Shown piece by piece: positions 7,706 through 28,670 of a stretch of 39,000 nt of DNA (the stretch's first letter is position 1; each line of letters opens with the position of its first letter). The translations under genes were made by a program, and so were the position numbers. The stretch lies in IMG/VR virus record IMGVR_UViG_3300043803_000411, positions 1 to 39,000 of that record, one strand, 5' to 3'. Source of the DNA: a virus. The notes beneath the pieces were generated by a model that saw only the letters and a program-made list of their open reading frames with translations, was not told where the DNA came from and made no database searches.

Positions 7706-8747
7706 TATCGCGTTCATCAGCGGTGACTGGAATAACCAGGTCGATCCGCCAGAGCCGAACGGATGCGCTTACTACCGTCAGGTGTTGCCTTGCCAACTGA
7801 TGCAGGAGCAGGGCTACGACACGCTAGTTGGGCAGCCGAGACCGTACGACACTATGGGTATCGGCTTAGCGAAAGATGACGGTGCGCTATTCGGCTTTGA
7901 CATAAACATCTTCAAACTGATGATGCACGCTTCTGTCCCTCAACTGTTTGACACGATGCAGTCCGAGGGGCAGATTGTCGCTATCGACATCGACGACTTC
8001 CACTTCGATCTGCACACTGAGAACATCGCGCACTCCGCGACGAATCCGCACACCAACCCCACGAATAACCGCATGTGGTACGAGGTTGGTATACGTCAGG
8101 CAGATTTCATCACCGTATCTACTGCTTTTCTCGCAGACTTCTACGGGCGACGCTGCCGCGATGTGCGCCTAGTGCGTAATGCGGTAGAGACTGACCGCTT
8201 TACACCTGTCGAGCAGCCGGAGACGCCGACGTTTGGATGGCTTGGCGGCACACTTTGGCGGTCCGGCGACATCGAACTTCTGCGCGACTGGCTGCCAGGA
8301 TTCGTGAAGCAGCACAAAGTCCCTGTTTCTCATTCTGGGCACATCCCCGGCGACCCCCGGCATTTCGCCGTGCGCGCAGGACTGAAGCGCGTCGAGACCA
8401 CCCCTATGCGAACGATCAGTAACGTTCCAAAGATGATGACTTTTAACGTCGGGCTGGTCCCTCTCGCCCGTAACGGATTCAATGAGGCGAAGAGTTACCT
8501 GAAGGGTTTGGAGTATGCGGCGGCTGGCATCCCGTTCATCGCCACGCCGACAGAGGAATACAGGCTCTTAGAAGCCGCAGGAGTTGGCAGGCTGGCCTCT
8601 TCCCCTGACGAGTGGATTGACCACGCTACGGCGCTCCTAGACCCGTCTACGCGCATCGCAGAGGCCGAGCGCAACCGCGCCATCGTGAGGCAGAGGTTTG
8701 ACATCTCAAGGATGGGGGAGGAATGGGCTACCGCGATTACTTCTTAA
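7692..8747 (+). CDS. Glycosyltransferase (GT-B fold, GT4-like)
   Basis: 351 residues. The N-terminal Rossmann half begins LSIAFISGDWNNQVDPP and includes AIDIDDFHFDLH. The linker holds VRLVRNAVETDRFTP, a nucleotide-sugar pocket pattern, and the C-terminal half has NEAKSYLKGLEYAAAGIPFI, the E-x7-E motif of GT4 enzymes. The reaction is transfer of a sugar from a nucleotide donor, with unknown acceptor. It is translated just ahead of, and overlaps, a methyltransferase, and faces a dTDP-sugar dehydratase gene, suggesting a shared sugar product. Confidence 0.8.
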   Translation: MSDLSIAFISGDWNNQVDPPEPNGCAYYRQVLPCQLMQEQGYDTLVGQPRPYDTMGIGLAKDDGALFGFDINIFKLMMHASVPQLFDTMQSEGQIVAIDIDDFHFDLHTENIAHSATNPHTNPTNNRMWYEVGIRQADFITVSTAFLADFYGRRCRDVRLVRNAVETDRFTPVEQPETPTFGWLGGTLWRSGDIELLRDWLPGFVKQHKVPVSHSGHIPGDPRHFAVRAGLKRVETTPMRTISNVPKMMTFNVGLVPLARNGFNEAKSYLKGLEYAAAGIPFIATPTEEYRLLEAAGVGRLASSPDEWIDHATALLDPSTRIAEAERNRAIVRQRFDISRMGEEWATAITS

Positions 8748-13997: not shown

Positions 13998-14806
13998 TAG
14001 GTACTCCTCTTGGGTCGTCTGTGGCGGAGCGTGATGTGCGATCCCTCGGGCCATCCTTTCTTGCTCTTGTAGGCGATGAACTCTGGATATGTCTCGACTA
14101 GGTACTTCGCTTCCGCAATCTTTCGCGGCATACGCTCTTCTTTGGTGCCACAGCCACCGGGTGTGTAACGCTTGCAGTCGGGGAGGACCCATTGGTTCAC
14201 GACGACGACCCCGAACTCGCGCAGATTGAGAGCGCACCAGCAGTAGTCGTCCATCGTTTGAACGTTTGTGTCGAAGCGAAGGTGGGACTTGCGTAACGCC
14301 CATGCCCGACCATCCGCGAGGATGTTCATTCCCCACTTGTTGCGGCGGTATGGTGCGTTATCGACGCCAGCAAAACCGAGCAGATGAGAGCCGATGCGTG
14401 AGCAGTATCGGGCACCTTGTTCGCAGCGCAGGAGAAACTGCTTCATGCTGATCGGATTCTTGAACCTCTTGGCGTATTCGTTCTGATTGGCGAGCGTGAT
14501 GTCTAGGACTTCCTCGTAGGTCTCGTCGTATCCTGCTAGTTCGGATACTGACTTCAGATCGTCTACTAGAAAGACTGCCCATTCGCCATCGTCCATGAGG
14601 TCGAGTGCGGCGTTGCGGTTGTAGGCGAGTCCGGCAGGCTGACCTGTTACGACGAGGCGGTTCTCGCGCACGGTGCCGCCTTTGATATGGCCTTGCTTCT
14701 GCTCTTCCGTATGAACGAGGACGGTGTGTTCGATGCCCTCTGCTTCCAGCATGAGGCTTGTCGTCATACTGTCGTAACGGTTCGAGGCGAATACGAAGAC
14801 CTTCAC
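13997..14806 (-). CDS. TET-associated glycosyltransferase (GT-A like, DNA base hypermodification)
   Basis: 269 residues. The start MKVFVFASNRYDSMTTSLML is a first Rossmann strand and helix. GEWAVFLVDDLKSVSE (75-90) carries the Asp-Asp metal/nucleotide-sugar motif, and the later segment QTMDDYCWCALNLREFGV (183-200) with WVLPDCKRYTPGGCGTKEER matches the TET-associated glycosyltransferases known from phages that glycosylate 5-hydroxymethylcytosine. It begins with a GTG that overlaps the stop of the TET/JBP gene, which is the diagnostic neighbour. The donor sugar is not predictable from sequence. Confidence 0.78.
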   Translation of the reverse strand: MKVFVFASNRYDSMTTSLMLEAEGIEHTVLVHTEEQKQGHIKGGTVRENRLVVTGQPAGLAYNRNAALDLMDDGEWAVFLVDDLKSVSELAGYDETYEEVLDITLANQNEYAKRFKNPISMKQFLLRCEQGARYCSRIGSHLLGFAGVDNAPYRRNKWGMNILADGRAWALRKSHLRFDTNVQTMDDYCWCALNLREFGVVVVNQWVLPDCKRYTPGGCGTKEERMPRKIAEAKYLVETYPEFIAYKSKKGWPEGSHITLRHRRPKRST

Positions 14807-15678
14807 TTGGCTTTCACGTTCCTACCGGGGATGAAGTCGCTCTCACCGCGAATAGCGGAGGCGATTCCCTCTTCGCGCTCGGTGCGCTTCTCCTGCCCTC
14901 TCGCGGTTTCCATCGCGTAGGTGAAGCAGTCCTTCATGCCGCGAAGCGCATAGTAGACGACGCTGTAACGGTAGCCGTCTCGCTTGGTCTGCGTCATCGG
15001 CGTAACGCCATGAACCAGGCCGTGCCCGTAGAAGTAGAGGGAGTACCCGTCGCGAGCGGAGCATACGATGTCGTACTCGGGGATGTGCAGATATCCGCCA
15101 GTAACGCTGCGGCGCACGACTGGCATCGCTGACCATGTATCGAAGTTGAAGCCGTCGCGATGGTAGGGCAGGGTGCTTGTCTTGTTGATGACGCCGCTGG
15201 TCCAGAGCGCTCCTTCTGCCATACGCCAATCGTCGGCGACCTCTTGGATCACGCGGGAGTCCCGTTCATGCACCTCGGGGAACACCTCTCGCATTTGATC
15301 TGCCAGCGTGTAGGCCATATTGACGATGACCGCGTGCGCCTCGGGATCTTCCTGCGACAGAGTCGTGGGTCGGCAAGACTCTCGTGACACCATCGGCTTG
15401 CGAGGAGACATACCGAATACGCGGGAAACGTTGATGACACCCTTCACCCCCCGCAGGGTATGACCGTACTTGACCCGCAGGACGGCACGCCGAAGTTCAG
15501 CCACCTTTCCCCTGGGCAGCGGAAGGTACGCGAAGAGCGGTTCCCCCGTATCGGCGTCTCGAACGACGCACGCTTCCGTTACATTGGCTTCGATATCGGG
15601 GACCATTTCGCCGACGTACTTATCCGCGTCCTCTTTCGACATGACGCGCCGCATCGTCAGGTTTCTGTAATCTCCCAA
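14803..15678 (-). CDS. TET/JBP-family 2-oxoglutarate/Fe(II) dioxygenase
   Basis: 291 residues. PYHRDGFNFDTW gives the iron ligands His173 and Asp175, GLVHGVTPM gives His223, and GYRYSVVYY gives the 2-oxoglutarate-binding Arg237. This is the double-stranded beta-helix core of TET/JBP enzymes, which oxidise 5-methyl-pyrimidines in DNA. About 150 helical residues precede it. The TTG at 15678 is favoured because AGGAGG lies seven bases upstream, inside the ParB gene; an ATG at 15654 is the alternative. Expected product: 5-hydroxymethylcytosine in phage DNA, then glycosylated by the next gene. No C5 methyltransferase is present in the window. Confidence 0.85.
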   Translation of the reverse strand: MGDYRNLTMRRVMSKEDADKYVGEMVPDIEANVTEACVVRDADTGEPLFAYLPLPRGKVAELRRAVLRVKYGHTLRGVKGVINVSRVFGMSPRKPMVSRESCRPTTLSQEDPEAHAVIVNMAYTLADQMREVFPEVHERDSRVIQEVADDWRMAEGALWTSGVINKTSTLPYHRDGFNFDTWSAMPVVRRSVTGGYLHIPEYDIVCSARDGYSLYFYGHGLVHGVTPMTQTKRDGYRYSVVYYALRGMKDCFTYAMETARGQEKRTEREEGIASAIRGESDFIPGRNVKAK

Positions 15679-23943: not shown

Positions 23944-24942
23944 TCAGGCAGACAGCAGCGCGTACGCCTTCTGCTTGATCGGTTCGACAGCGCCCACGAA
24001 GACGCGCTCGGCGCGCGCAACATCGGCGTCACGCTTGCCTGCCTTCACGGGCTTCACCCAGTCAGCCCACTCCGTGATCGCGTTGAACGCTGCCCAGCGG
24101 GTACCGGCGACGTTCTGCTGCGTCGGGGCGAGCCACAGACCGGCAACTTGCTCGCGCGTCTCCTCAACGCGCATCATCTGAAGGCTGCTCATGTCCTTCC
24201 GCATCGGGAAAAGAGCCTCTGTGAACGTGTCGAACTCGCGGCGAGACATCTCACTAGCAACGAGTTCATTGACAGCGGCCTGGAAAGCGTCGGCGTAATC
24301 GACAACGAGACCCATCGCCTCGCGTGCCTGCTGAATCTTGCCGCGAATGTTGGCGGTGTGCTTCATAGACCACTTGCTGACGGCGCTCTGAAGCCCGAAC
24401 TGGACCGTGTTGGCGCAGACGGGACGCACCGCAGTAACGAAAGCGGTGAAAGCCTTGCTCCCGTCGTGGCTCGTGGAGCAGACAAGGTACAGATCAACGG
24501 TGTCCTGGCCTCCGGCGATGCTGATGTGCTGCGGCATCTTCATCGAAACGAACACCTGAGTCCCGCCACGCAGAGATCCGGCTGTCTCAAAGACCGCACC
24601 GGACTCATCGACCAAGTTGTTAAGGAAGTCGAACGCCTCCTTGTTCTGGATGACCGTGTACTGCTTGCCAACGACGCCGAGACCCTGCACTCCCAACTTC
24701 GGGTGGTCACGGTAAGTCATGTAACGATCGGGTGCGCTGACCATCACTACACCGTTCTCGGTCAGCACCGGGGTCTGGACCGGATCATCGGACTTGATGA
24801 CGTCCCAATCCAACTGCGCGAGCCGCAGAGCATCCTCTACGTTCTGCGCGCCATCGGTGATTGTGCCCAACTGGTGCCAAGGAACCTCGCGGTTGGAGAA
24901 GAACGCGGCACTACCATCCTGGAATGTCTCTACTGCGTGCAT
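23944..24942 (-). CDS. DUF932 phage protein
   Basis: 332 residues. MHAVETFQDGSAAFFSNREV then PWHQLGTITDGAQNVEDALR and LDWDVIKSDD, with YTVIQNKEAFDFLNNLVDE, match the DUF932 family (phage/plasmid-related protein). The middle has QVFVSMKMP and CSTSHDGSKAFTAFVTAVRP typical of the family. Function unknown; it is often strongly expressed and found in replication regions. It is the first gene downstream of the last hammerhead element. AAGGG lies upstream of the ATG. Confidence 0.85.
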   Translation of the reverse strand: MHAVETFQDGSAAFFSNREVPWHQLGTITDGAQNVEDALRLAQLDWDVIKSDDPVQTPVLTENGVVMVSAPDRYMTYRDHPKLGVQGLGVVGKQYTVIQNKEAFDFLNNLVDESGAVFETAGSLRGGTQVFVSMKMPQHISIAGGQDTVDLYLVCSTSHDGSKAFTAFVTAVRPVCANTVQFGLQSAVSKWSMKHTANIRGKIQQAREAMGLVVDYADAFQAAVNELVASEMSRREFDTFTEALFPMRKDMSSLQMMRVEETREQVAGLWLAPTQQNVAGTRWAAFNAITEWADWVKPVKAGKRDADVARAERVFVGAVEPIKQKAYALLSA

Positions 24943-24964
24943 TGGAATACCCTTCCGGTTAGGT

Positions 24965-25020
24965 CTGACGATCTCGTCAGCGGCACTATTCAGTACCGGA
25001 CCCCTCGCGGGGTTTCGATC
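24965..25020 (-). ncRNA. Type II hammerhead ribozyme, copy 1
   Basis: Read on the minus strand: stem II 3' strand GATC, then GAA, stem III ACCCC/GGGGT with loop GCGA, cleavage-site C (24999), stem I CGGTAC/GTGCCG with a six-base loop, core CTGACGA, stem II 5' strand GATC. Here stem II is GAUC/GAUC where the other copies have GUC/GAC, a compensated change. The loop CTGA can pair with TCAG at 24965-24968. Predicted cleavage is between 24999 and 24998. It separates the 25024-25290 gene from the DUF932 gene. Confidence 0.9.
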
Positions 25021-25023
25021 TAG

Positions 25024-25290
25024 TCAGCAGAAGACGTACACGGTCCCGTCCCCGTAATCGTCATCGTCATCCTCGGGATCGCTGATCGCGAACTCGCCGT
25101 GGTAGTGACTCCACTTAACGGGCATCAACTCCACGTTGTCGGGGATGAAGCGGTAGGCGATACGAGTGCCCCAATGGTCTGCGCTCGCTGCGCTGAACAT
25201 GATCTGCTTGTCTGGGTCCAGCGTTTGCAGTTGCTCAATCAACTCACCTACCGTGAGCGACTTGCCCTTGATCTCTGTAACTGTTGCCAT
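25024..25290 (-). CDS. 88-residue acidic phage protein
   Basis: The product starts MATVTEIKGKSLTVGELIEQ and has LQTLDPDKQIMFSAASADHW, then a beta section, and ends with the acidic run SDPEDDDDDYGDG before VYVFC. AGGAGG lies nine bases before the ATG, inside the previous small gene. The family (small phage proteins with LTVGELIEQL...P) is widespread and uncharacterised. A hammerhead element follows its stop after three bases. Confidence 0.65.
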   Translation of the reverse strand: MATVTEIKGKSLTVGELIEQLQTLDPDKQIMFSAASADHWGTRIAYRFIPDNVELMPVKWSHYHGEFAISDPEDDDDDYGDGTVYVFC

Positions 25291-25394
25291 TACTGCATAC
25301 CTCCTTCTATCCAGCCGGCGACACCCATCATGGCGATGAGTGCCAGGGTTGCGAGTGTGGCGAGAACGATCTCGCCGCGTGCCGTGAGTCTCAC
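25290..25394 (-). CDS. 34-residue single-span membrane peptide
   Basis: A GTG at 25394 overlaps the previous TGA (GTGA) and has GAGGAGG four bases upstream. The stop TAA overlaps the next ATG (TAATG). The product MRLTARGEIVLATLATLALI then AMMGVAGWIEGGMQ is one hydrophobic span with a basic N terminus. The good ribosome binding site and overlaps at both ends make it a likely gene. Confidence 0.6.
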   Translation of the reverse strand: MRLTARGEIVLATLATLALIAMMGVAGWIEGGMQ

Positions 25395-25600
25395 GATGCC
25401 TCCTCTGTCCTCGTGATCGGTGCGCCGAGCCATTCCTCTACCCCCTTAACGTGGAACAACTCGGGCGCATTACTCATCTGCTTCACTTCAATCGGCTGAA
25501 GCGGATCCCAACCGATCGCTTCCATCTCGTTCAGCATGTTCCTGAGCGAGAAGATTGTCGGGCGACGCAGGATGTAACCTGTCTGAAGTCCTTCGATCAT
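25391..25600 (-). CDS. 69-residue hypothetical protein
   Basis: I chose the ATG at 25600, which overlaps the upstream TGA (ATGA). The product starts MIEGLQTGYILRRPTIFSLR and has a helix NMLNEMEAIGWDPLQP, then PIEVKQMSNAPELFHVKGVE. Unknown family. The longer version to 25663 reads across the neighbouring gene and was not used. Translation is likely coupled, as no Shine-Dalgarno is evident. Confidence 0.6.
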   Translation of the reverse strand: MIEGLQTGYILRRPTIFSLRNMLNEMEAIGWDPLQPIEVKQMSNAPELFHVKGVEEWLGAPITRTEEAS

Positions 25601-25767
25601 GCGATCACATCGACAATCGCGTCGCACAGAATCGCGCAGCGCATGTATGCCGTCGGGTCGCAAACTAAATACAGGTGGCCGTCGCGCTCCTCTGTGTAGG
25701 GATCGGTCATCTGCGTCCCGCGATGCATGTATTTACGATCTAGCCGCGTGATAACGGTTACTGTCAT
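25597..25767 (-). CDS. 56-residue hypothetical protein, first gene after ribozyme copy 2
   Basis: The ATG at 25767 lies eight bases after AAAGGGG in the ribozyme-linked leader. The product is MTVTVITRLDRKYMHRGTQM, then TDPYTEERDGHLYLVCD and a C-terminal YMRCAILCDAIVDVIA helix. Family not recognised. Its leader begins with the stem I hairpin left by ribozyme cleavage. Confidence 0.6.
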   Translation of the reverse strand: MTVTVITRLDRKYMHRGTQMTDPYTEERDGHLYLVCDPTAYMRCAILCDAIVDVIA

Positions 25768-25784
25768 GGTGCTTCCCCTTTCGT

Positions 25785-25845
25785 TAGCCTGTCTCATCAG
25801 GCACAGGCGGCTATCCCTGTGCGACCCCGCGAACGGGGTTTCGAC
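25785..25845 (-). ncRNA. Type II hammerhead ribozyme, copy 2
   Basis: Minus strand: GTC, GAA, stem III ACCCCG/CGGGGT (loop TTCG), cleavage C (25823), stem I GCACAGG/CCTGTGC, core CTGATGA, then GAC closing stem II. The stem I loop holds TAGCC, complementary to GGCTA at 25785-25789. The TAG stop of the upstream gene shares its G with stem II. Predicted cleavage is between 25823 and 25822. Confidence 0.93.
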
Positions 25846-26117
25846 TAAAACGGCGGTGCCGTCACTTCTTTGCCAGACTCGTACCCGGCATCCCAACCCT
25901 TGGACCAGCCGCGATCGAACTCGGCGAACTCGGCGTCCCAAATCAGTTCACGAATCTTCTGGATGTCATCCTTGCTGACTCCCAACTCGCGGAAGTAGTG
26001 GATGAGAGCGTGGTACATGACGCGGCTCTCGTTCGAAGCGCCCATCGTCGGGTACTCCTCAACGAAACGCCACGCGCCAGCGATCGCGGTGTCGATCGGC
26101 GTGCTTGTGATTGCCAT
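25845..26117 (-). CDS. 90-residue hypothetical early protein
   Basis: The product starts MAITSTPIDTAIAGAWRFVE, with a helical body (RVMYHALIHYFRELGVSKDD, IRELIWDAEFAEFDRGWSKG) that resembles small phage proteins of unknown function. AAAGGAAAG lies upstream of the ATG. This is a junction without a ribozyme: only 34 bases separate it from the upstream gene. Its TAG stop is part of ribozyme copy 2. Confidence 0.6.
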   Translation of the reverse strand: MAITSTPIDTAIAGAWRFVEEYPTMGASNESRVMYHALIHYFRELGVSKDDIQKIRELIWDAEFAEFDRGWSKGWDAGYESGKEVTAPPF

Positions 26118-26151
26118 TGGCTTTCCTTTCGTTGCGCGGTGAAGGTGTCAG

Positions 26152-26337
26152 TCAGGAGAGGAGCGCCACGGCATGCTCGTATTCCTCAGCGTCGCACGCG
26201 AGCGAGAACGCCGTGTCCAGGCAGCGATCGGCAGCCATCAGCGCAAGGCGCAGCGACGGGCGGTCCCCGCCAACGCTGGCGATCAAAGACATCAGGTCTT
26301 CCTGGATTCGGTTGATTTTCGATTCGGTCTGATTCAC
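26152..26337 (-). CDS. 61-residue helical hypothetical protein
   Basis: It starts at a GTG (26337) eight bases after AAAGGG. The product MNQTESKINRIQEDLMSLIA then ADRCLDTAFSLACDAEEYEH is all helix, like a small regulatory or adaptor protein. No named family. It is the first gene after ribozyme copy 3 and shares a mRNA with the 25845-26117 gene. Confidence 0.55.
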   Translation of the reverse strand: MNQTESKINRIQEDLMSLIASVGGDRPSLRLALMAADRCLDTAFSLACDAEEYEHAVALLS

Positions 26338-26354
26338 TTGCTTTCCCTTTCGTC

Positions 26355-26413
26355 TCGCCTGTCTCTTCAGCGCCAGGAGGCGAACCCTGACGGACCCCTC
26401 GCGGGGTTTCGAC
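26355..26413 (-). ncRNA. Type II hammerhead ribozyme, copy 3
   Basis: Minus strand: GTC, GAA, stem III ACCCC/GGGGT (loop GCGA), cleavage C (26393), stem I CGTCAGG/CCTGGCG with one U-G pair, core CTGAAGA, then GAC. The U-G pair forms only in the minus-strand RNA, which agrees with the direction of transcription. The loop sequence TCGCCT pairs with AGGCGA at 26355-26360. The upstream TAG stop overlaps stem II. Predicted cleavage is between 26393 and 26392. Confidence 0.94.
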
Positions 26414-26715
26414 TAATCGCGCGTCGCATAGATACGGATGACACGGCGCTCGCCGTACTCGTTCTCGGTGCCGTACTCGTAGGACCAGATCTCCGTGTCT
26501 CCGTGGTGGTCGATCTCGACTGCCTCGGGGTTAGTAGCGAGTGCCTTCAGTACCTTGTTGAGCCGGATCTTGACGGTGCGGTCGCTCTGCGGCGTGTAAT
26601 GATTGACGTCGGCGTGCTCTGGCGCGGCGTAGGTGCCGCCGCAACCGCAGGCGCACCCGGTCTTGCCGCAGTACGTCTTCTGGATGCTCTTGAATGAGAT
26701 ACCGATGGTGGTCAT
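26413..26715 (-). CDS. 100-residue cysteine-containing early protein
   Basis: Residues 13-30 hold SIQKTYCGKTGCACGCGG, a dense Cys/Gly cluster that may bind metal. A helix with SDRTVKIRLNKVLKALATNP and a beta end (EIWSYEYGTENEYGERR, VIRIYATRD) follow. AAGGGAAG lies upstream of the ATG. It shows a partial resemblance to the 27145-27348 gene product, which also has an EYG-x-x-V-R-V strand, so the two may be related. Function unknown. Confidence 0.6.
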   Translation of the reverse strand: MTTIGISFKSIQKTYCGKTGCACGCGGTYAAPEHADVNHYTPQSDRTVKIRLNKVLKALATNPEAVEIDHHGDTEIWSYEYGTENEYGERRVIRIYATRD

Positions 26716-26731
26716 TGTGCTTCCCTTTCGT

Positions 26732-26794
26732 CTGGCCCTGTCTCGTCAGCGGTAGCCGGGCAGTTCTACCGGACCCCGTCGCCGGGGTTTCGAC
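26732..26794 (-). ncRNA. Type II hammerhead ribozyme, copy 4
   Basis: Minus strand: GTC, GAA, stem III ACCCCG/CGGGGT (loop GCGA), cleavage C (26772), stem I CGGTAG/CTACCG, core CTGACGA, then GAC. The loop has CTGCCC, able to pair with GGGC-C-AG at 26732-26738 with one bulge. The upstream TAG stop overlaps stem II. Predicted cleavage is between 26772 and 26771. Confidence 0.92.
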
Positions 26795-27069
26795 TAATAT
26801 CCGAGTCGCTTAAGATCGGCGTTCGCGTACTTGCCGAGAACGCGCGACGTTGCCGCGACATAGGTGCTTCCGTGGATGTCGGTCTTGATGACCGGGTCGG
26901 CGTACACGACCTGAGCGTTGATCGCGTTCACGAGTCGCTGCGCGGTTTGCTTGTTACGCAGGACGTAGCCGTGGGTGCTTGGCCTATCGACCGTGGCATC
27001 CCAGGTCGAGTAGACGCACCACTCGCCGCCAGGCCTCTCGCACTCGTACATATCGGCGTGAACCTTCAT
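26794..27069 (-). CDS. 91-residue hypothetical early protein
   Basis: The product starts MKVHADMYECERPGGEWCVY, followed by strands and a helix (RNKQTAQRLVNAINAQVVYA) and a basic C terminus (RVLGKYANADLKRLGY). The alpha/beta mix is well formed but not a family I know. AAAGGGGAAG precedes the ATG. Ribozymes flank it on both sides, so it would be a single-gene mRNA after cleavage. Confidence 0.6.
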   Translation of the reverse strand: MKVHADMYECERPGGEWCVYSTWDATVDRPSTHGYVLRNKQTAQRLVNAINAQVVYADPVIKTDIHGSTYVAATSRVLGKYANADLKRLGY

Positions 27070-27087
27070 GCGCTTCCCCTTTCGTTA

Positions 27088-27145
27088 CACCTGTCTCGTC
27101 AGCACGGGTCGGTGAGTTCCCGTGGACCCCTCTCGGGGTTTCGAC
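27088..27145 (-). ncRNA. Type II hammerhead ribozyme, copy 5
   Basis: Minus strand: GTC, GAA, stem III ACCCC/GGGGT with loop GAGA, cleavage C (27125), stem I CACGGG/CCCGTG, core CTGACGA, then GAC. The loop CACC pairs with GGTG at 27088-27091. The upstream TAG stop overlaps stem II. Predicted cleavage is between 27125 and 27124. Confidence 0.93.
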
Positions 27146-27348
27146 TATTCAGCACCGCACTCGCAGCCTCGCTTGTTGCAGCGGTGGGGCGCGGCCTGCC
27201 GGAAGACCCGCTCGCCGCAGAGCGAGCAGCATGTCATCGCTGCGATGCAGGACTTCTGCTCGGTCGGGCAAGTGATGACCCGTACCCATGCGCCGTACTC
27301 GTTTCGGTACTCGAAGTCCAGCGTATGAAGCGCCGTCGCGGTCACCAT
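27145..27348 (-). CDS. 67-residue cysteine-rich early protein
   Basis: I chose the ATG at 27348, which overlaps the upstream stop by seven bases (ATGGTGA; the GTG one codon later is also possible). The C-terminal half contains CPTEQKSCIAAMTCCSLCG and HRCNKRGCECG, about nine cysteines, suggesting zinc binding. Its start MVTATALHTLDFEYRNEYGA is a beta hairpin. A long in-frame extension covers the neighbouring gene and is rejected. Confidence 0.6.
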   Translation of the reverse strand: MVTATALHTLDFEYRNEYGAWVRVITCPTEQKSCIAAMTCCSLCGERVFRQAAPHRCNKRGCECGAE

Positions 27349-27536
27349 GACAGCATCGTCATAGTCGGAGGGCGGAGCGCGGTCAGTACGCCACCCGGCT
27401 CGTAGTCGGTGAGCAGGATCTTCTCGGCGGCTTCCTTTGCCTCTTCCCACGTGTCGCCGGTAACGCCGATCTCCTCGACTGAGGCGTACCCGTCGCTGTC
27501 GGTGAATGTCACCTCGGCGGTGTAATGGAATGCCAT
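27342..27536 (-). CDS. 64-residue early protein
   Basis: MAFHYTAEVTFTDSDGYASV, then VTGDTWEEAKEAAEKILLTD and a short end. This is a beta-beta-helix unit like other small phage proteins with W-E-E-A-x-x-A-A helices. It carries no metal ligand. AAAGGGGAG lies upstream of the ATG. It shares a mRNA with the next gene, with coupled stop and start. Confidence 0.6.
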   Translation of the reverse strand: MAFHYTAEVTFTDSDGYASVEEIGVTGDTWEEAKEAAEKILLTDYEPGGVLTALRPPTMTMLSW

Positions 27537-27555
27537 GCGTCTCCCCTTTCGTCAT

Positions 27556-27616
27556 TGACCTGTCTCGTCAGGCACGGTAGGTCAGTTCCGTGCGACCCGC
27601 CGAAGCGGGTTTCGAC
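27556..27616 (-). ncRNA. Type II hammerhead ribozyme, copy 6
   Basis: Minus strand: GTC, GAA, stem III ACCCGC/GCGGGT (loop TTCG), cleavage C (27594), stem I GCACGG/CCGTGC, core CTGACGA, then GAC. Stem III differs from copies 2 and 4 at paired positions, so pairing is preserved by double changes. The loop TGACCT pairs with AGGTCA at 27556-27561 through six bases. The upstream TAA stop abuts the stem II 3' strand. Predicted cleavage is between 27594 and 27593. Confidence 0.94.
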
Positions 27617-27877
27617 TTACTCCCAGGTAGCGCTCTCGGTGATCCTGCCGTCAGACATCCCGAAGGAGTTCTGAAGGCCAATGCGGATCGCATGGAACTT
27701 CTCGCCGTCAGCCTTCGAGAAGTCGTTACGGCGCTCGGTACGGAACTCCATCTGGATCTCGTCACCCTTGTCGGCGATTGCCGAAGCGAGGTCACGGATC
27801 AAGCAGGCAGCCTCCGCCTTGCTCATCGTGAACCAGCAGACGTTACGGTCGTTCATCGGCGTGTGCGTGGTGGTCAT
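27617..27877 (-). CDS. 86-residue hypothetical early protein
   Basis: The product starts MTTTHTPMNDRNVCWFTMSK, with AEAACLIRDLASAIADKGDE and IQMEFRTERRNDFSK, then ADGEKFHAIRIGLQNSFG. The helix-strand pattern looks like a small alpha/beta domain. Family not recognised. The ATG lies downstream of AAAGGGAAGG from the ribozyme leader. Ribozymes lie on both sides. Confidence 0.6.
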   Translation of the reverse strand: MTTTHTPMNDRNVCWFTMSKAEAACLIRDLASAIADKGDEIQMEFRTERRNDFSKADGEKFHAIRIGLQNSFGMSDGRITESATWE

Positions 27878-27892
27878 GATTGTTCCTTCCCT

Positions 27893-27954
27893 TTCGCCTG
27901 TCTCATCAGCACCGGGAGGCGAACTCCGGTGGACCGCCTCGCGGCGGTTTCGAC
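27893..27954 (-). ncRNA. Type II hammerhead ribozyme, copy 7
   Basis: Minus strand: GTC, GAA, stem III ACCGCC/GGCGGT (loop GCGA), cleavage C (27932), stem I CACCGG/CCGGTG, core CTGATGA, then GAC. Stem III is covaried relative to the other copies. The loop TTCGCCT pairs with AGGCGAA at 27893-27899 through seven bases, and this partner runs directly into the AAAGGG ribosome binding site. Predicted cleavage is between 27932 and 27931. Confidence 0.94.
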
Positions 27955-27960
27955 TATGCG

Positions 27961-28209
27961 CTACATGAACTGGCTGACCATCCGGCTGAACGTCGGAAGG
28001 TGAACGGGCTTGGCCTTGGGCCGAACCTTGAAAGACGCAGGCACCGGGATCTCGGTGGCACCCTCCAAGCCGCGACGCGCAATGGCCTTCTCACGGCTGG
28101 ACCACTCGCCACCCATGAAGACGTAGCCATCGGTGTGCAGCGGCGTGATGATGAACAACGTGTAACGGCCATTCTTCTCTGTGAAGAAGTAGGTGCGGTC
28201 GTCGCTCAT
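27961..28209 (-). CDS. 82-residue hypothetical early protein
   Basis: MSDDRTYFFTEKNGRYTLFI, then TPLHTDGYVFMGGEWSSREK and a basic end (FKVRPKAKPVHLPTFSRMV). Beta strands dominate the first half. Unknown family. The ATG follows AAAGGGAAG of the ribozyme copy 8 leader. Its stop lies six bases upstream of ribozyme copy 7. Confidence 0.6.
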   Translation of the reverse strand: MSDDRTYFFTEKNGRYTLFIITPLHTDGYVFMGGEWSSREKAIARRGLEGATEIPVPASFKVRPKAKPVHLPTFSRMVSQFM

Positions 28210-28228
28210 GCGATCTTCCCTTTCGTCA

Positions 28229-28301
28229 TCGCGTGTCTCTTCAGCGTTAGGACGCGACCCCTAACGGACCCTCCTACCAGTAACGGCAGGAGGGTTTCGA
28301 C
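28229..28301 (-). ncRNA. Type II hammerhead ribozyme, copy 8 (longest stem III)
   Basis: Minus strand: GTC, GAA, stem III ACCCTCCT/AGGAGGGT (8 bp with a 12-base loop), cleavage C (28267), stem I CGTTAGG/CCTAACG, core CTGAAGA, then GAC. Loop TCGCGT pairs with ACGCGA at 28229-28234. Stem III is longest here and has a long loop (28276-28287). Predicted cleavage is between 28267 and 28266. It is the first ribozyme after the divergent control region. Confidence 0.92.
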
Positions 28302-28326
28302 TGGGAAGTCAACTGAACGCTCGGGG

Positions 28327-28533
28327 TTACTTCCGGCTCGTCTGTCCTCGCGTCGCCCCTGCCGCTCGCTCTAGCGTTTGCACGGTGATCGCATCGCAAC
28401 GATGGGGGTGGCGAGGAAGGTCCCTTCCGGTTCTCCCTCTGCGCGGATCGGGCTGGTTCACTAGGCGGTTCCGGTCGCGACGCGCGATCACTTGTCTCGG
28501 TGATCTTGCGGTTAGTGGCTCTTCTACGCTCAC
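28327..28533 (-). CDS. Possible 68-residue basic leader protein (uncertain)
   Basis: A GTG-started frame ending 25 bases before ribozyme copy 8. The product begins MSVEEPLTARSPRQVIARRD and is very basic, with no clear Shine-Dalgarno. A competing frame (28274-28537) would have to read through the ribozyme core and end inside stem III, so I prefer this one. Codon use does not decide it. The stretch may instead be an untranslated leader. Confidence 0.3.
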   Translation of the reverse strand: MSVEEPLTARSPRQVIARRDRNRLVNQPDPRRGRTGRDLPRHPHRCDAITVQTLERAAGATRGQTSRK

Positions 28534-28580
28534 CCATTCGCCGGAGGCGGTGCCCCGATCCGCTCTTCAGTTATGCCCCT

Positions 28581-28586
28581 ATCTTA
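28581..28586 (-). promoter_or_regulatory. Candidate -10 box for the early (minus-strand) transcript
   Basis: On the minus strand this reads TAAGAT, a good TANNNT -10, about 50 bases before the first early reading frame and inside the inverted repeat. I could not place a convincing -35, so a phage-specific or activator-dependent promoter is possible. Confidence 0.35.
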
Positions 28587-28670
28587 CCGTGTCAGACGGT
28601 AGATGGTGGTATTTCCCGAAAAGTTTTTTGAGAGCAATTTGAGGCCCCATCCCAGGCCCCTACCCCGGTG

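Follow-up and report, generated by a model that had tools for sequence, protein, structure and literature searches.

An array of eight type II hammerhead ribozymes as the probable punctuation of an operon in a 39-kb virus record

The window, that is, the whole stretch of DNA that was analysed, is the 39-kb virus record IMGVR_UViG_3300043803_000411, whose terminase is about 50% identical to those of Arthrobacter phages, e.g. Kovu and Wheelbite. Its minus strand carries eight type II hammerhead ribozymes, A to H, between positions 24,960 and 28,301, which amounts to eight in 3.3 kb. The genes of this array are plausibly early, as judged by gene order only. Family searches of the small genes found almost none with a known family and thus give no functional hint. 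The features of the region are listed below with scores from the Rfam model Hammerhead_II (RF02276) and from R1, a covariance model for which 60 ribozymes from other viral contigs, and no window sequence, were used; E-values from such home-made models are rough.

28303..28590, minus strand: conserved, structured leader RNA of about 270 nucleotides, directly 5' of the first ribozyme; no gene
28224..28301, minus strand: ribozyme A; predicted cut 28267/28266; R1 54.5 bits, E 2.7e-14; Rfam 40.7
27961..28209, minus strand: 82-residue open reading frame, no known family
27889..27954, minus strand: ribozyme B; predicted cut 27932/27931; R1 70.9 bits, E 3.7e-19; Rfam 48.6
27617..27877, minus strand: 86-residue open reading frame (f10), no known family
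27551..27616, minus strand: ribozyme C; predicted cut 27594/27593; R1 62.3 bits; Rfam 34.8, below the cut-off
27145..27536, minus strand: two small open reading frames between C and D, one at 27342-27536 (MAFHYTAEV...), the other ending at 27145 (...CECGAE)
27082..27145, minus strand: ribozyme D; predicted cut 27125/27124; R1 59.0 bits; Rfam 29.8, below the cut-off; overlaps UAG
26794..27069, minus strand: 91-residue open reading frame (f19)
26729..26794, minus strand: ribozyme E; predicted cut 26772/26771; R1 54.8 bits; overlaps UAG
26413..26715, minus strand: 100-residue open reading frame (f3), weak match to PHROG 5930
26350..26413, minus strand: ribozyme F; predicted cut 26393/26392; R1 62.9 bits; Rfam 39.8; overlaps UAG
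25845..26337, minus strand: two open reading frames (26152-26337 and 25845-26117), no ribozyme between them
25780..25845, minus strand: ribozyme G; predicted cut 25823/25822; R1 64.6 bits; Rfam 49.3; overlaps UAG
25024..25767, minus strand: four small open reading frames
24960..25020, minus strand: ribozyme H, the outlier; predicted cut 24999/24998; R1 34.1 bits, E 3.5e-8
23944..24942, minus strand: 332-residue DUF932 protein (PF06067, PHROG 1221), the first gene past ribozyme H

All eight minus-strand elements described by the initial annotation are present; in the order stated there, each runs from GUC-GAAA through stem III, a cleavage site (GUC) and stem I to CUGANGA and GAC. The conserved core (CUGANGA, GAAA and UH at the cut site) is found in 8 of 8 copies, and stems I and III are closed by loops while stem II is open, which is the type II permutation. 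When the Rfam type II model was run on the minus strand, as the annotation had proposed, four copies reached the gathering score, C and D fell below it, and E and H were not reported. Because Rfam alone undercounts the array and the two weakest copies need a better-fitting model, R1 was built as an independent one. R1 recovers exactly eight elements in the window (70.9, 64.6, 62.9, 62.3, 59.0, 54.8, 54.5 and 34.1 bits; E-values from 3.7e-19 to 3.5e-8), and its ninth-best match scores 11.4 bits with an E-value of 0.2. A search for the core motif on the minus strand of the window found no ninth element. On the plus strand, positions 7870-7923 resemble the core but receive no hammerhead score, and this match was set aside as chance. 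No other Rfam ribozymes and no type I or type III hammerheads were found in the array contigs. A DNA search of public phages with the array region gave no match, and a single ribozyme used as a blastn query gave chance hits only.

Stems I and III vary in sequence and stay paired, as the initial annotation had stated. Among the eight window copies, 93% of cells are paired, 25 cells are changed on both sides compared with 7.1 in shuffles, and the covariation score is 0.498 versus 0.128. The same holds for the 60 unrelated members, in which 88% of cells pair and 289 two-sided changes stand against 92 in shuffles; sliding the partner by 1-3 columns lowers pairing to 32-40%. Stem II is the identical GUC/GAC in seven copies, and ribozyme H alone, the copy nearest position 25,000, has GAUC/GAUC, just as had been noted. 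The annotation had missed the pseudoknot that loop I forms with the 3' tail, which lies just behind stem II. The eight copies form 41 Watson-Crick pairs with their own tails and 27.1 ± 2.9 when tails are swapped, and none of 1000 shuffles reached as high a value. The pairs number 4-7 per copy in A to G, and 3-4 in H, where the pseudoknot is weak. In the class as published, the loop I–tail pseudoknot was shown to be required for fast cleavage (Perreault et al. 2011, PMC3088659). Assignment of the window elements to the type II hammerheads is thus supported by Rfam, the independent covariance model, stem covariation and the pseudoknot.

The ribozymes occupy gene borders in a stereotyped manner. 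In half of the window copies (D, E, F and G), stem II begins with the G of the upstream stop codon UAG, and in ribozyme C the upstream stop codon UAA abuts stem II. The start codon lies 22-27 nucleotides past stem II. For 70% of the 153 listed ribozymes from other viral contigs, the end of the upstream stop codon falls at -6 to +1 relative to stem II, compared with 2.2% at random sites, and it never falls past +1; in 79%, versus 15% at random sites, a Shine-Dalgarno sequence and a start codon follow within 80 nucleotides downstream, at a median of 24 nucleotides. The order of a stop codon touching stem II, the ribozyme, a Shine-Dalgarno sequence and a start codon is general among type II ribozymes in viral contigs. 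Ribozyme-free junctions of the window (e.g. 26117-26152) retain a plain Shine-Dalgarno leader.

The intergenic placement given by the initial annotation holds at the gene borders but not for ribozyme A, which is preceded by the structured leader RNA and no gene. In a five-way alignment, this leader has 60 consensus pairs, 13 of them with a compensatory change, and its closing stem covaries from GGAUCGGG/CCCGAUCC to GGAGAGGG/CCCUCUCC in the relative L226. The leader has no match in Rfam. By cutting, ribozyme A would free the leader RNA from the mRNA.

The array is kept in close relatives of the window. Records with enough sequence whose terminases are 96, 93 and 88% identical carry 8, 8 and 5 ribozymes, respectively, and G059, another close relative, carries 8. 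Relatives at 66-76% terminase identity have 0-2 ribozymes, and one pair at 68% has one each. Insertion, loss and permutation have shuffled the small genes that lie between ribozymes within the clade, and the altered borders carry a ribozyme. Stem I identity is 0.95 when both neighbouring genes are the same, about 0.75 when one is the same and 0.54 when neither is. It was considered whether the ribozymes travel with the upstream gene only, which is ruled out by L226, where the downstream gene carries the ribozyme along; both sides of a junction therefore recombine. Orthologous ribozymes show 11 covarying stem pairs, 84 without any change, one with a one-sided change and three that break. Orthologues of ribozyme C in G013, G014 and G059 have compensatory changes in stem I. 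All ribozymes detected by the covariance model in the arrays of the clade have an intact core.

Dense arrays recur outside this clade. Among the matches listed, most contigs with type II hammerheads have 1-3 each, and unrelated contigs reach at least 8 (G001), at least 6 (G004) and at least 13 (G003). G002, which is Streptomyces phage Hank144, has 9 ribozymes, and the named Arquatrovirinae have 9 (R4), 10 (phiELB20 and Triumph), 11 (Animus, Alvy and Celia) and 12 (Salutena). All nine ribozymes of R4 pass the Rfam cut-off, so that any Rfam scan would list them; the literature searched contained no account of the R4 array. In the R4 genome (L332, NC_019414), the annotated gp60.1, gp67.1 and gp75.1 overlie hammerhead ribozymes, and these three are probably not genes. 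In the otherwise unrelated G004 (L306), the array closes, like that of the window, with a ribozyme placed before a DUF932 relative (29.5% identity).

No hammerheads were found in the sister Streptomyces phages Sujidade, Lannister, Hydra, phiCAM and Sitrop (Likavirus and Camvirus). Instead, the intergenic gaps in the early regions of Sujidade and phiCAM (L330 and L331) contain a 43-nucleotide tRNA-like acceptor/T-arm element, e.g. GGGUGACCGGCAGACACCAGGGUUCGAGUCCCUGGCACCCACU. This minihelix has coaxial acceptor and T stems and a GUUCGAG T-loop. All cells are paired in 16 copies (100%), with two-sided changes at 8 of the 12 pairs. A search with a model of the minihelix yields 7-10 copies per phage in the five hammerhead-free phages and none in eight hammerhead phages, in the window or in the relatives of the window. 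Each of the 13 phages thus has only one of the two devices. Between the two phage groups, orthologous genes tend to be flanked on the same side, by a hammerhead in one group and by a minihelix in the other; by hand count, 21 of 31 orthologue pairs carry both devices where gaps of at least 50 nucleotides are present on both sides. The minihelix is absent from Rfam, and a tRNA-Arg called by ARAGORN at L331 5922-6004, which is a minihelix, is probably a false call. An acceptor stem joined to a T arm is the classical minimal RNase P substrate. Because the minihelix has this shape, both devices plausibly cut RNA at gene borders.

It is probable that the eight type II hammerheads serve as operon punctuation, cutting the RNA into mRNAs that are capped by hairpins at their new ends. 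Cutting of one operon RNA into one- to four-gene mRNAs would fit the position, strand and conservation of the elements and the tRNA-like substitute at the junctions of sister phages. Once transcribed, each ribozyme would fold into the stem III hairpin, the cut site, the stem I hairpin and a stem II of 3-4 base pairs, and the pseudoknot would form between loop I and the tail immediately 5' of the Shine-Dalgarno sequence. By analogy with published active members of the class, the window copies would cleave themselves, the RNA cut falling between the two hairpins. Because the type II cut lies between intact hairpins joined only by stem II, it would leave a terminal hairpin on both sides. The upstream mRNA would end about 20-35 nucleotides past its stop codon, in the terminal stem III hairpin with a 2',3'-cyclic phosphate, and the downstream mRNA would open with a 5'-OH stem I hairpin followed by its own ribosome site. 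These hairpins would protect both ends and uncouple neighbouring genes. The likely benefit to the phage would be to separate and stabilise one- to four-gene messages, making small genes that are often exchanged independent of their neighbours. A broader proposal, held with moderate confidence, is that interchangeable RNA-cutting devices punctuate phage operons, with hammerheads in some phages and, in sister phages, host-cut minihelices that take the same gene borders; cutting at junctions would then be selected regardless of the means, since it would make swapped-in small genes independently expressible.

Several observations weigh against operon punctuation or its extension to the minihelices. 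The core of ribozyme H can pair with its own tail to form a competing hairpin, CUGACG/CGUCAG (-26.3 versus -20.3 kcal/mol). Several junctions of the region, such as the one at 26,117-26,152 and those among the small open reading frames of 25,024-25,767, are free of ribozymes, and no hammerheads occur in the more distant relatives that were searched (terminase identity about 56-62%); the device is therefore not essential to the lineage. As for the minihelix, it is plausibly a substrate of RNase P on account of its shape only. The sharing of junctions partly reflects that only gaps are able to hold a device, and Fisher p-values for it are too small since orthologue pairs are non-independent.

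The competing hairpin bears on an alternative in which the ribozymes are regulated switches, cut or left intact depending on ribosome traffic or another signal, and thereby set how much of the message is joint and how much is separate. Ribozyme H is conserved in G059, G013, G014, G016 and G055, and the alternative hairpin is kept in five relatives, which suggests that this copy may be slow or regulated. In addition, the stop codon touches stem II, so that the 5' strand of the ribozyme would lie under a ribosome that is terminating there. However, copies A to G have no conserved extra domain, and the tRNA-like substitute, which is presumably constitutive, speaks against a need for control. Regulated switching is unlikely.

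The mosaic gene order between near relatives, with genes inserted, lost and permuted between ribozymes, would also be expected if the elements were mainly recombination sites, in which near-identical short stretches at gene borders serve the swapping of small genes and self-cleavage is incidental. Such a role would agree with ribozyme identity tracking the upstream gene at times and the downstream gene at others. However, DNA identity would suffice for recombination and paired stems would not be needed, yet stems I and III change in a compensatory manner, the pseudoknot covaries and the cores are intact; moreover, the tRNA-like substitute has no shared sequence at all. This makes it quite improbable that recombination is the main function.

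It is very unlikely that paired cuts free one-gene RNAs that are re-joined as circular messages by the ribozymes or a ligase. Any two halves could pair through the GUC/GAC stem II common to seven copies, so that halves of neighbours, all but H sharing this stem, could form a new complete hammerhead across the circle, and an RNA ligase is annotated in related Arthrobacter phages. However, those ligase-bearing phages have no hammerheads, RNase P-type cutting in the sister phages would give different ends, and Perreault et al. sought circular or spliced products of clustered hammerheads without finding any (PMC3088659). Least credible of all is that the elements are repeats of a selfish or decaying kind that do nothing for the phage: the copy number ranges from 0 to at least 13 and many relatives have none, but there are zero broken cores among the array copies of the clade, pairing persists in orthologous copies, the placement follows gene borders and stems differ among copies.

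Punctuation by self-cutting RNA can be compared with known systems. The window copies share with the published class (RF02276; PMC3088659) the core, the permutation open at stem II, the short stem II and the loop I–tail pseudoknot, as well as a location between genes of phages and prophages. The initial annotation had suspected that dense serial use was undescribed. However, hammerhead clusters flanking single genes in prophages were published with the class in 2011, and triple arrays were reported to cut in vitro and in E. coli (PMC3088659). Compared with what the available sections of that paper describe, the density is higher here (8 in 3.3 kb and at least 13 in one record), and the fixed spacing of stop codon, ribozyme, Shine-Dalgarno sequence and start codon, the gene shuffling and the tRNA-like substitution are features of the present phages. 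A literature search for phage hammerhead arrays or tRNA-like junction elements returned only the 2011 paper and reviews, a weak negative since subscription journals were mostly not covered. As far as the literature was searched, the dense arrays that recur in cultured phages, the junction grammar, the gene shuffling between ribozymes and the tRNA-like substitute in sister phages are new.

The early RNA of phage T7 is likewise a long transcript that is cut at gene borders, by RNase III, which yields small mRNAs that carry hairpins where they were cut; a host protein enzyme cuts there, whereas self-cutting RNA is proposed here. The minihelices of phiCAM and Sujidade resemble the tRNA punctuation of mitochondrial transcripts and model substrates of RNase P in their acceptor/T-arm shape and their location between genes. 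However, they lack a D arm, an anticodon arm and CCA, their cutting is only predicted, and they belong to sister phages of the R4 group and not to the window.

A 2017 review lists the role of hammerheads in prokaryotes as an open question of the field (PMC6155905). Cultured phages with dense arrays, among them Streptomyces phage R4, and their sister phages as a natural control bear on this question and make it testable through mapping of RNA ends in infected Streptomyces. The array would also represent a compact natural design for obtaining independent mRNAs from one promoter. Elsewhere in the window, a queuine tRNA-ribosyltransferase-like (DpdA-type) gene lies on the minus strand at 14803-15678 beside ParB-like genes, which suggests 7-deazaguanine modification of DNA.

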